IMG/VR virus record: IMGVR_UViG_3300022744_000774
Location: 1-45,001 of that record
Reading direction: 5' to 3' (one strand)
Length of the DNA stretch: 45,001 nucleotides
DNA from: a virus
Shown in pieces: positions 1 through 4,931 of the stretch. Position 1 is the first letter of the stretch; the number at the start of each line of letters is the position of its first letter. Position numbers and translations under genes: made by a program. The notes under the pieces are model-generated. The model ran no database searches and was not told the DNA's origin. It worked only from the letters and a program-made list of their open reading frames with translations.

Positions 1-1646
1 AAACAGACTGGCAGCCGCTCGAGGGCAAGGCCGTCTTGATTTGGCCGGACAAGGATGCACCCGGTTGGAGCTATGCAGAAGCAGCGGCTAAGGCTGCCTT
101 GGATGCAGGCGCTCGATCGTGTGACATCTTGATCCCACCTGATTTCAAACCTTCAGGCTGGGATGCTGCGGATGCGCTGCTAGAGGCGCAAGCTCAAACT
201 GAAGACGCTGTTGCGTTTGATGTGGACGGCTTCATCCTCACAGGACATCGTCTCCCGATCGCCAAAGATCCCGACCCGTCCGAGGTTGATACATCCTCGG
301 TTGATTTGGTCGATGGGGTGAACTGGAGCACAGAGGACGGTCTTGCGATTGCGTTTACCAATCGCTATGGCATCGACCTGCGTTACTGCGCCCAGTTGGG
401 CAAGTGGTTCTGGTGGAACGGCAAGCGTTGGGTGGAGGACAAGATGCTCTACGTGCAACACCTCTCACGGGGTATTTGCCGTGCAGCCTCACGCAAGGCC
501 GACACACCAAAGCTCAAGTCAAAACTGGCAAGCGCATCATCCATCGCATCTGTAGAGCGAATCATTCGCTCAGACCCCAAGCACGCGGCCAACATCGATG
601 AGTGGGATCCAGATCCTTGGCAGCTCAATACGCCAGAGGGCGTCATCGAGTTAAAGACGGGCACTTTGCGTCCTCACCAACGCATTGACCGTATGACCAA
701 GATCACGACCGCAAGCCCTAAGGGGGAGTGTCCACAGTGGGTGGCTTTTCTCGAGCAAATCACAGGGGGTGATGCCGAGTTACTGAGTTATTTGCAGCGC
801 ATGGCTGGGTACTGCTTGACGGGCCTAACCACAGAGCACGCATTGCTGTTTCTATATGGCACGGGTGGCAACGGTAAGTCTGTCTTCGTCAACACGCTGT
901 TCACGATCATGGGCGACTACGCCGCCAATGCACCCATGGAAACATTCATGGAGTCACGCAACGATAGACACCCCACTGACCTTGCTGGGTTGATGGGATC
1001 GCGCTTGGTAACGGCCACAGAGACTGAGCAGGGGCGTCGTTGGAACGAGTCAAAGATCAAAGAGATCACGGGTGGGGACCGTGTGTCTGCTCGCTTTATG
1101 CGCCAGGACTTTTTCACCTATGTTCCCGCTTACAAGATCGTGATCTCTGGCAACCACAAACCAGCGATTCGTAACATCGATGAGGCAATCAAGCGGCGCA
1201 TGCACTTGATCCCCTTCACCTTGACCATACCGCCAGAAAAGCGAGACCACTTGCTCTCGAGCAAGTTGCTCAAAGAGCGTGATGGGATCTTGGCTTGGGC
1301 TGTTCAGGGCTGCCTCATGTGGCAGCGCGAGGGCTTGCGACAACCGACCTCTGTCACATCAGCCACCAATGAGTATTTCGAGTCCGAAGACGTTATGGGT
1401 CGCTGGATTGATGAACGCTGCGTGTTGGTCAGCAACGCCAAGTCGCTCACCTTTGAGCTCTACAACGACTGGAAGCAATGGGCTGAAACGAACGGGGAAT
1501 ACCAAGGGTCGCAACGCCGCTTTTCTGATCTTTTGATCTCCAAAGGTGTGGAGCGATGGCGCAACTCAAGTGGTGTTCGTGGCTTCCAGGGTATCGGTTT
1601 GAAGCAAGGCGCGCCCGTTCGCTTCACTCCTCACGAGGTCGATTGA
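1..1646 (+). CDS. P4-type phage primase-helicase (5' truncated by window edge)
   Basis: Replicative primase/SF3 helicase of the prophage, expected to prime and unwind DNA at the phage origin. The reading frame is open from base 3 with no convincing start, so the N-terminus lies outside the window. The first visible residues (V-L-I-W-P-D-K-D-A-P-G, about 33-65) look like the end of a TOPRIM fold, the metal-binding part of the primase domain. The middle and C-terminal parts match the D5_N/P4-family helicase region: Walker A G-T-G-G-N-G-K-S near 857-882, a Walker B-like A-T-E-T-E about 150 bases later, and the sensor-like V-I-S-G-N-H-K-P followed by R-R-M-H-L-I-P-F. These assignments rest on family recognition. 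The gene is followed by a large palindrome rather than by a close partner gene. Confidence 0.9.
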   Translation, partial: TDWQPLEGKAVLIWPDKDAPGWSYAEAAAKAALDAGARSCDILIPPDFKPSGWDAADALLEAQAQTEDAVAFDVDGFILTGHRLPIAKDPDPSEVDTSSVDLVDGVNWSTEDGLAIAFTNRYGIDLRYCAQLGKWFWWNGKRWVEDKMLYVQHLSRGICRAASRKADTPKLKSKLASASSIASVERIIRSDPKHAANIDEWDPDPWQLNTPEGVIELKTGTLRPHQRIDRMTKITTASPKGECPQWVAFLEQITGGDAELLSYLQRMAGYCLTGLTTEHALLFLYGTGGNGKSVFVNTLFTIMGDYAANAPMETFMESRNDRHPTDLAGLMGSRLVTATETEQGRRWNESKIKEITGGDRVSARFMRQDFFTYVPAYKIVISGNHKPAIRNIDEAIKRRMHLIPFTLTIPPEKRDHLLSSKLLKERDGILAWAVQGCLMWQREGLRQPTSVTSATNEYFESEDVMGRWIDERCVLVSNAKSLTFELYNDWKQWAETNGEYQGSQRRFSDLLISKGVERWRNSSGVRGFQGIGLKQGAPVRFTPHEVD

Positions 1647-1688: not shown

Positions 1689-1794
1689 CTGACGCATGAC
1701 ACAGCTCGACGCTGTTTTCCTATTATCGACGTCTCACGCGTACGCGTAATAGAGGGAATATAGAAAACAACGTCGATATGTGTCAGTGCGTCAG
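1689..1794. repeat. 106-nt interrupted palindrome between primase and resolvase
   Basis: Nested inverted repeats share nearly one centre (about 1741). The outer arms are CTGACGCATGACACA (1689-1703) and TGTGTCAGTGCGTCAG (1779-1794). The inner arms are CGACGCTGTTTTC (1707-1719) and GAAAACAACGTCG (1763-1775). CTATTA (1720-1725) can pair with TAATAG (1747-1752). A perfect 12-mer, ACGCGTACGCGT, sits at the centre (1736-1747). Its place right after the replication helicase suggests an origin, a primase-binding site or a regulatory hairpin, but nothing here decides among these. The right outer arm runs up to the resolvase start region, so it could also affect that gene's translation. Confidence 0.85.
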
Positions 1795-1807: not shown

Positions 1808-2281
1808 ATGACACTCAAGACAATTTTGGCCCTCGACTTGGGCACGACAACTGGTTGGGCTCTTCGTGATCAAGCGGGGAGCATTGCACACGGATTTGTG
1901 AGCTTCAAGCCGCAACGGTTCGAGGGTGGTGGGATGCGCTTCTTGCGCTTCAAACGCTGGCTCACAGAAATCAAAGCCACAACCGAGCATGGCATCGATG
2001 CCGTTTACTTCGAGGAAGTGCGGCGTCATCTCGGGGTGGATGCGGCTCATGTCTACGGCGGGTTGATGGCAACGCTCACGAGCTGGTGTGAGCATCACCA
2101 GATCCCCTACGAAGGTGTTCCCGTTGGCACGATCAAACGACACATCAGCGGCAAGGGCAACGCGTCCAAAGACGATGTGATCAAAGCGGTGTGCGAGCTC
2201 GGGTTTGCTGTCAGCGATGACAACGAAGCCGACGCCATTGCGTTATTGAACCTTGCGATCCTGAATAACGAGGGGGTGTGA
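1808..2281 (+). CDS. RuvC-like Holliday junction resolvase (phage type)
   Basis: A 157-residue protein of the RNase H-like RuvC family, expected to cut four-way junctions or branched DNA during phage recombination or packaging. The N-terminal L-A-L-D-L-G-T-T-T-G-W strand carries the first catalytic Asp (D10). An acidic Y-F-E-E-V motif lies near residue 68, and a C-terminal D-D-N-E-A-D-A-I-A-L segment supplies the last acidic residues in the order expected for RuvC. I chose the ATG at 1808 because an AAGGAC-like ribosome binding site precedes it. An in-frame ATG at 1778 would start inside the palindrome and add ten unlikely residues. It is followed one base later by the next small gene, so it is probably translationally coupled to it. 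Confidence 0.85.
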   Translation: MTLKTILALDLGTTTGWALRDQAGSIAHGFVSFKPQRFEGGGMRFLRFKRWLTEIKATTEHGIDAVYFEEVRRHLGVDAAHVYGGLMATLTSWCEHHQIPYEGVPVGTIKRHISGKGNASKDDVIKAVCELGFAVSDDNEADAIALLNLAILNNEGV

Positions 2282-3299: not shown

Positions 3300-4550
3300 A
3301 TGCCTCAAACTCAAAAGCATCCAGAGATTCGGATGACGCCTTTGGATAAGTTGATTCCCTATGCCCGCAATGCCCGCACACATAGCGATGAGCAGGTGGC
3401 ACAGATCGCGGCCTCCATCTCCGAGTTCGGATTCAACAATCCCATCCTCACCGATGGTGAGCATGGTTTGATCGCTGGACATGGTCGTCTGGCCGCAGCT
3501 CGAAAGCTCGGCCTCAAAGAGGTTCCGGTGATTGAGCTCGGGCACTTGAGCGATACCCAAAAGAAAGCCTACATCCTGGCCGACAACCGCATTGCATTGA
3601 ATGCTGGTTGGGACGATGGGCTGCTGACTCTGGAGTTGCAAGAGCTCCAAGGTGCAAACGTAGACCTTGGTCTTTTGGGTTTTGGTGATGAAGAGATTGA
3701 GCGACTGCTCAACGGTGCTGACGTTGGCGGTGGTTTGACCGAAGATGACGCAGTCCCAGAGCCACCCGTGGAACCTGTATCCAAACCTGGTGACCTGTGG
3801 ATTCTTGGCAACCACCGCCTTCTGTGTGGCGACTCAACCCTTCTGTCAGACGTTGAGAGGCTGATGGATGGTCAGCTCGCAGACATGGCGTTCACTGATC
3901 CACCCTACAACGTGGACTATGGCAACAACGCCAAGGACAAGATGCGCGGCAAAGACCGTCGCATCATGAACGATGCCTTGGGCGATGGGTTCTACCAATT
4001 CCTCTACGACGCCTGCCTGAACCTCTTGGTCGTGACCAAGGGTGCTTGCTATGTGTGCATGAGCTCTTCGGAGTTGCACACATTGCAGAAGGCTTGGATT
4101 GATGCAGGTGGCAAGTGGTCCACCTTCATCATTTGGGCTAAGAACACCTTCACGCTCGGTCGCGCTGACTATCAGCGCCAGTACGAACCCATCCTGTATG
4201 GCTGGAAACAGGGAACTGATCACTTCTGGTGCGGTGACCGTGATCAGTCGGACATCTGGAACTACAACAAGCCCCGGGTTAACGACCTACACCCGACCAT
4301 GAAGCCCGTTGAGCTGGTCGAGCGTGCAATCCAGAACTCCTCAAAGAGTCGTGACATCGTGCTCGATCTCTTTGGTGGCTCTGGCACAACCCTCATCGCT
4401 TGCGAGAAAACCAACCGCCAGGCTCGATTGGTTGAGTTGGATCCCAAGTTTGTCGATGTAATTGTCAAGCGTTGGGAGGAGTACACGGGCAAGAAAGCAG
4501 TGCTCTCGAACCGAGAGCTCGAGGCTCAAGCTGAGGTCTTAGGTGAGTAA
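3300..4550 (+). CDS. ParB-like domain fused to beta-class DNA methyltransferase
   Basis: A 416-residue two-domain protein. Residues ~10-130 form a ParB/Srx-type nuclease-like domain (P-L-D-K-L-I-P-Y-A-R-N-A-R-T-H, then G-L-I-A-G-H-G-R-L-A-A-A-R-K). Residues ~175-400 form an amino-methyltransferase with D-P-P-Y-N-V-D-Y-G (catalytic motif IV) before D-L-F-G-G-S-G-T-T (AdoMet-binding motif I), the beta-class order. The product should be N6-methyladenine or N4-methylcytosine. No restriction enzyme is adjacent, so it looks like an orphan phage methyltransferase, perhaps protecting phage DNA from host restriction; that role is inference. The start at 3300 has GTAGGA upstream. A TTG at 3264 would overlap the divergent gene's start. 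Confidence 0.9.
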   Translation: MPQTQKHPEIRMTPLDKLIPYARNARTHSDEQVAQIAASISEFGFNNPILTDGEHGLIAGHGRLAAARKLGLKEVPVIELGHLSDTQKKAYILADNRIALNAGWDDGLLTLELQELQGANVDLGLLGFGDEEIERLLNGADVGGGLTEDDAVPEPPVEPVSKPGDLWILGNHRLLCGDSTLLSDVERLMDGQLADMAFTDPPYNVDYGNNAKDKMRGKDRRIMNDALGDGFYQFLYDACLNLLVVTKGACYVCMSSSELHTLQKAWIDAGGKWSTFIIWAKNTFTLGRADYQRQYEPILYGWKQGTDHFWCGDRDQSDIWNYNKPRVNDLHPTMKPVELVERAIQNSSKSRDIVLDLFGGSGTTLIACEKTNRQARLVELDPKFVDVIVKRWEEYTGKKAVLSNRELEAQAEVLGE

Positions 4551-4571
4551 AGCACTGCAATCGCCCTTGTT

Positions 4572-4931
4572 CTATCCAAGCCTTGCGACGTAACGGGCGT
4601 AGTCCCCGCCCTCGGGGTTGACGTAGAGATAAGGGCGACCAGGTGCTTTGATCTCAACGCACAGAAACCCGTCACCTGTGCCACCTCCTTTGCCTGCCAA
4701 CCAGTCGCGAGATTTCAGTAGGGTTCGTCCAAAGGAATCGAACTCCTCTGGTGTCATTTCCTTGGTTTCGGTTACGAACACTTTGTAGTTGCCGTAGCCT
4801 CCAACCTCCTCAAGGCTGGATGGCTTGCGGGCAAATGGCAGCTCAACGCTGAGCTCTTGGACGTTGATCTCTTTGCCTGCAAACATCAAAGTGCGAGGCG
4901 TTCTCTCGATGGTGATCGTCATGGTTGTCAT
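4572..4931 (-). CDS. Conserved-looking small phage protein, unknown function
   Basis: A 119-residue protein, the last gene of a leftward four-gene operon. The ATG at 4931 has GAGG five bases upstream and begins eight bases after the stop of the DUF3489 gene. It starts M-T-T-M-T-I-T-I-E-R-T-P-R-T-L-M-F and has a C-terminal R-P-Y-L-Y-V-N-P-E-G-G-D-Y-A-R-Y-V motif. It is probably a soluble alpha/beta protein. It ends 21 bases from the convergent methyltransferase stop. I do not recognise the family. Confidence 0.65.
   Translation of the reverse strand: MTTMTITIERTPRTLMFAGKEINVQELSVELPFARKPSSLEEVGGYGNYKVFVTETKEMTPEEFDSFGRTLLKSRDWLAGKGGGTGDGFLCVEIKAPGRPYLYVNPEGGDYARYVARLG

Follow-up and report, generated by a model that had tools for sequence, protein, structure and literature searches.

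What is the function of the 106-nt palindrome at positions 1689–1794 of the viral sequence IMGVR_UViG_3300022744_000774? We analysed positions 1 to 45,001 of this IMG/VR record, a 45-kb stretch referred to here as the window, in which the palindrome lies between two genes. The initial annotation had named these genes as a P4-type primase-helicase and a junction resolvase, and had read the whole gap as one potential cruciform that could be a replication origin or a structure acted on by the resolvase. The gene names were correct, with matches to D5_N and TIGR01613 for the first gene and to PHROG 159 for the second.

Make-up of the palindrome and its flanking genes

The features of the locus are as follows.

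3–1646, plus strand: P4/D5-family primase-helicase, presumed initiator (Pfam D5_N and DUF5906, NCBIfam TIGR01613)
1392–1643, plus strand: region coding for the C-terminal winged helix (residues ~464–547), presumed iteron reader (AF2 model, co-variation)
1689–1794, no strand: whole element, putative replication origin with two inverted iteron sets around a core (arms, fold, layout in relatives)
1690–1696, plus strand: left iteron 1, TGACGCA (exact TGACRCA site)
1697–1703, plus strand: left iteron 2, TGACACA (exact TGACRCA site)
1707–1713, plus strand: left iteron 3, CGACGCT, degenerate (comparison with relatives)
1735–1748, no strand: central alternating pyrimidine-purine tract CACGCGTACGCGTA, containing the 12-mer palindrome
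1769–1775, minus strand: right iteron 3, CGACGTT, degenerate (comparison with relatives)
1779–1785, minus strand: right iteron 2, TGACACA (exact TGACRCA site)
1787–1793, minus strand: right iteron 1, TGACGCA (exact TGACRCA site)
1808–2281, plus strand: RuvC-like resolvase, next gene downstream, not counted as part of the origin (PHROG 159)

The palindrome proved to be real and non-random, and all of its claimed arms were present. The outer arms (1689–1696/1787–1794) match perfectly over 8 nt, the next pair (1697–1719/1763–1785) matches at 87% over 23 nt, and a perfect 12-mer palindrome, ACGCGTACGCGT, occupies 1736–1747. The 23-nt pair was the top inverted repeat of the window, with a score of 15.5 compared with 11.5–13 for the best repeat in each of three Markov-simulated windows. 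DNA folding of 1689–1794 gave z = −5.7, and none of 200 shuffled sequences was equally stable. The segments at ~1720–1734 and ~1748–1762 pair poorly, and the whole gap is therefore not one cruciform. A more fitting description of the element is that of short iterons in two mirror-image sets with an alternating tract between them. Its arms are built from repeated TGACRCA-type words, three per arm, and the four exact TGACRCA sites are the sole such cluster in the window. The spacing of the words is irregular (7/8 and 10), and an indel of 1 nt between repeat units 1 and 2 accounts for the off-by-one centre of the nested arms. The core has AT-rich flanks and a GC-rich centre formed by the alternating tract.

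The primase-helicase gene has lost its 5′ end at the window edge. Its product consists of a Toprim-like start, a D5_N part, an SF3 AAA+ core and a C-terminal winged helix. The AlphaFold2 model (mean pLDDT 90.5) ends in this winged helix, with a helix at residues 504–513 and wing strands at 517–529. Fold comparison grouped the protein with ASFV primpol and poxvirus E5, both of which have been deposited as hexamers, and ASFV primpol also as dodecamers. The resolvase probably starts at the ATG at 1808, past the element. Downstream of it, positions 2494–2865 encode a DUF6362 protein with weak ECF-sigma similarity, which could be a late regulator.

Layout and central tract in relatives

Direct blastn of the element against named phages gave no match, and relatives were therefore reached through the neighbouring proteins. 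With the resolvase and the primase as starting points, searches of IMG/VR and of bacterial genomes yielded some 240 loci, among them a Limnohabitans lacus prophage with ~98% primase identity. At most of these loci, the primase stop codon is directly followed by short repeats in tandem, then a core, then an inverted set of these repeats. Across relatives, two mirror-oriented sets of 7–10-bp iterons flank a core of ~45–65 bp, and in most of them the iterons recur preferentially every 9 or 10 bp, roughly one turn of the helix. The repeat words agree within one phage and differ between phages (TGACGCA, TGACGGA, GAAGGAT, GTGACCG, TCCGAAG, GGAGGGT, GGTTACG, AGCGACG, GTGAACA and GTGCCCC). A mobile element or MITE was considered as an explanation of the palindrome and rejected, there being no second copy in the window and one fixed place for the element in its relatives.

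To quantify the layout, we used a four-iteron score (two direct and two inverted 7-mers; maximum 28), which took the place of an earlier, looser iteron caller that separated signal from controls poorly. A score of at least 25 was reached by 55% of 175 loci and by none of 506 control windows (0/171 upstream, 0/162 downstream and 0/173 shuffled). With a threshold of 24, the fractions were 78% of the 175 loci and 4–11% of the control windows. The scoring fraction was nearly unchanged after the loci had been thinned to <90, <70 or <60% primase identity, and about a fifth of the loci stayed below the score threshold. The element of the window itself is one that falls below the strict score: the near-identical relatives L003 and L004 score 22.5 each, which implies ~22.5 for the window. 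The shortfall comes from unit spacings of 7/8 and 10 in place of 9-9. Location, exact sites and close relatives are the grounds for its predicted membership of the iteron class.

No four-iteron element was found past the distant D5 primases of phages phiBT1, Dubu, Doobus, Judy, Tbone and BMP-1. Five of these are actinophages (phiBT1, L250; Dubu, L251; Tbone, L254; Doobus, L255; Judy, L249), and three of them (Dubu, Tbone and Doobus) have a gene for DNA polymerase I shortly downstream of the primase, hinting at another mode of replication start. In several relatives of the Rhodoferax type (L187, L188, L191, L197, L090 and L203), the gap between primase stop and element is longer (240–550 nt) and contains extra TGACGC-type repeats. 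By analogy with P4 crr, these are possibly extended or doubled iteron arrays.

Between the iteron sets, the alternating pyrimidine-purine run had a median length of 20 nt, compared with 6 nt both in shuffled cores and elsewhere in the same loci. Runs of at least 14 were present in 75% of cores, in 0.3% of shuffled cores and in 0% of segments elsewhere in the loci. Of the 57 cores that made up the non-redundant set, 50 had a run of at least 10, and the runs were centred (relative position 0.48, sd 0.08). CG made up half of the pyrimidine-purine steps in these cores. The AT-rich phages phi105 and Sfi21 have short ATATAT runs in place of the GC-rich alternation.

Base pairing, protein binding and the presumed reader of the iterons

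If the palindrome were held by base pairing, changes in one arm should be compensated in the other. In the closest relatives, which supply four more sequence variants of this element, all seven paired-arm changes were uncompensated. This is the outcome that the initial annotation had named as refuting its proposal, and it speaks against the cruciform as a structure maintained by pairing. Two of these changes (1701 A to G, 1781 T to C) convert TGACACA to TGACGCA. Among distant phages, the arms were more alike across the dyad (0.863) than the iterons were within an arm (0.756), spacers included, and this held for 39 elements to 1. From these comparisons, the iterons appear to explain most of the palindrome, with some further dyad constraint remaining. 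The latter may reflect symmetric contacts of two protein rings or occasional hairpin formation; as the arms are more alike over long distances than the iterons need, the dyad or a cruciform may have a secondary role.

Plasmid pRN1 offers a precedent for a stem-loop origin: it depends on a stem-loop of 100 nt located 3′ of the primase-helicase gene, restoring the symmetry rescued a mutation in the stem, and an origin of this type has also been proposed for phage BIP-1 (PMC4234260). As in our element, a palindromic region of ~100 nt lies 3′ of a primase-SF3 gene, and the layout is kept while the sequence is poorly conserved (PMC4234260); the pRN1 origin differs in being explained as a stem-loop. 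An extruded hairpin rather than the iterons would then be what the primase-helicase recognizes. The likeness across the dyad and the DNA fold (z = −5.7) agree with this, but the uncompensated arm changes do not. Pairing also leaves the tandem 9–10-bp period within the arms unexplained, and the core pairs poorly. Taken together, these findings make a pRN1-like origin unlikely. In the related Bordetella phage BMP-1, the four-iteron score gave no iteron signal.

We then asked which of the two neighbouring proteins varies together with the iterons. Among loci with the same RuvC downstream, an alternating run of at least 11 was present in 96% of the 48 with a D5 primase upstream and in 0% of the 22 with another gene there. 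Pairwise iteron similarity correlated with similarity of the last 67 primase residues (winged helix, 481–547) when the rest of the primase was taken into account (partial r 0.31, 0/1000 permutations), although this correlation was drawn from loci picked for their iteron score and may still contain a share of common ancestry. Given the winged helix, the rest of the primase showed no added tie to the iterons (partial r 0.035, 277/1000 permutations). In a window scan along the primase, covariation with the iterons was maximal at the C-terminal end, and, of the 20 residues with the strongest tie to the iterons, half fell in 481–547, including R505, D509, W519 and R526. A second, weaker peak at residues ~146–236 (window 438–710), in the D5_N region, is perhaps a second DNA contact.

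Covariation with the winged helix shows recognition, not initiation. The iterons could thus be an operator to which the primase or another regulator binds to control downstream transcription, with the origin elsewhere, and a promoter-like match is present on the minus strand (1786–1757). We regard this as improbable: P4 crr and the Sfi21 origin, which have the same plan, are replication sites, and PICI origins have the same place (PMC6092414).

A structured RNA, or a transcription terminator or attenuator, between primase and ruvC is very improbable. The RNA fold of the element is stable (z = −4.9), the strand is presumably transcribed with the operon, and there is one weak terminator-like stem. 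However, the long stem is not followed by a T tract, an Rfam search gave no match to known structured RNA families, and the iterons covary with a protein domain. Among mismatches across the dyad, G.T (48) was not commoner than A.C (41), so that RNA pairing is apparently not selected.

That the element is a cruciform substrate of the RuvC-like resolvase (a processing site or autoregulation), as the adjacent gene and the palindrome had suggested at first, is scarcely tenable: the element does not travel with the resolvase gene, being absent before RuvC genes without a D5 primase upstream and present at loci without RuvC downstream, and RuvC similarity showed no tie to the iterons beyond that of the primase (partial r −0.03, 620/1000 permutations).

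RuvC genes of the same family are also preceded by other blocks. One type was seen at L008 (1680–1800), L009 (2890–3000) and L017 (2860–3000) as well as at L010, L018, L023, L025, L032, L033, L044 and L064. Such RuvC genes follow a Prim-Pol/PriCT_2/DUF3987 gene (seen at L009), and the block, GAGGGAGCCGCACC..CCCTGACCCGGC..GCTCCTCCAGGTCGCTT, is highly conserved and folds well, with almost no covariation and no Rfam match in the loci scanned. A third type of element upstream of RuvC has GTTGGCA / TGCCAAC repeats followed by CTCCTACTACGTAGGAGAGGG (L011–L014, L016, L019–L021, L026–L028, L043, L057 and L080). It adjoins an AAA_25 helicase gene and is perhaps the origin of another replication module.

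The element as a probable replication origin, compared with known systems

We conclude that 1689–1794 is very probably the replication origin of this phage, or an essential cis site like P4 crr, presumably bound by the primase-helicase. This reading, drawn from sequence comparison, follows from the place and layout shared by relatives and from the covariation of the iterons with the primase winged helix; the origin proposed by the initial annotation is strongly supported by it.

The closest known systems, besides pRN1, are those of phage P4, the PICIs and phage Sfi21. In phage P4, crr is annotated at 4291–4590 beside alpha, and its type 1 repeats form both direct and inverted pairs. As in the window, a Toprim primase-SF3 helicase gene ends directly 5′ of the site, whose iterons of ~8 bp form 9-bp direct pairs as well as inverted ones. 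According to a work cited in PMC10516667, P4 has a winged helix as its origin-binding domain, and the C-terminal winged helix predicted here resembles it. P4 differs in having two sites (a doubled crr and ori) and an AT-rich centre, whereas the window has one site, another iteron word and a GC-rich alternating centre. No P4-like second iteron site was found in the window, a phage genome fragment with one TGACRCA cluster.

PICI origins are located 3′ of rep and consist of two iteron sets flanking an AT-rich melting region, a plan that, according to PMC6092414, is shared by no other known bacterial replicon. Our element has the same place as in PICIs/SaPIs (pri-rep-ori) and likewise two iteron sets flanking a core; PICIs differ in being satellites and in their AT-rich centre. 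In Streptococcus thermophilus phage Sfi21, the 302-bp noncoding region directly 3′ of the primase is annotated ‘origin of replication, phage inhibitory sequence’. Its TAGTTAC iterons stand in mirror pairs and reached the maximal four-iteron score (28/28), but the iterons are others and the centre is AT-rich with a short (AT)n run. This element is described as an origin that is activated by infection, and as an origin-like element that blocks phage (PMC6356513).

The SV40 origin with its T-antigen double hexamer is an analogy only, the site not being homologous. The origin-binding domain of T-antigen has another fold and lies N-terminal to the helicase. T-antigen is an SF3 helicase that is loaded as two opposed rings and is associated with a shearing mechanism (PMC9894130).

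The model starts from what the comparison demonstrates, namely layout, position, covariation and predicted fold. We infer that the winged helices of the primase-helicase would bind the two iteron sets and thereby place one SF3 helicase ring on each side, the rings facing each other. ATP-driven translocation would then melt the core, with the alternating tract as its easily deformed centre, and the Toprim primase part would prime both forks after opening. The palindrome would be mainly a by-product of a two-sided loading site and not of a need for a hairpin.

The GC-rich alternating centre is the unusual part compared with known iteron origins. Together with the change of iteron words from phage to phage it makes up what is of interest here, the plan being otherwise of a known kind. 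It is possible, though we would not count on it, that elements of this kind are widespread among phages as a class of origin whose centre, in place of the usual AT-rich melting region or as its organizing element, is an alternating, Z-DNA-prone tract of 12–26 bp with mostly CG and CA/TG steps. The tract might serve as the opening point, by a non-B flip under negative supercoiling or by shearing between two opposed SF3 rings. With the flanking iterons free to change, the winged helix of the primase might set an initiator-origin code that is private to each phage and incompatible with the codes of others.

For many uncultured temperate phages, the results provide a rule for finding origins: mirror-image iterons and an alternating core right after a P4/D5-type primase gene. 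They carry over to phages and prophages in general an origin plan that had been described as peculiar to the PICI satellites of phages, and join it with P4 crr and the Sfi21 origin. The natural series of initiator domains matched to DNA words makes a winged-helix recognition code testable, and the conserved GC-rich alternating centre turns the opening of DNA that is not AT-rich by an SF3 helicase into a concrete question. Copies of such origins can act as phage-blocking decoys, as with Sfi21.
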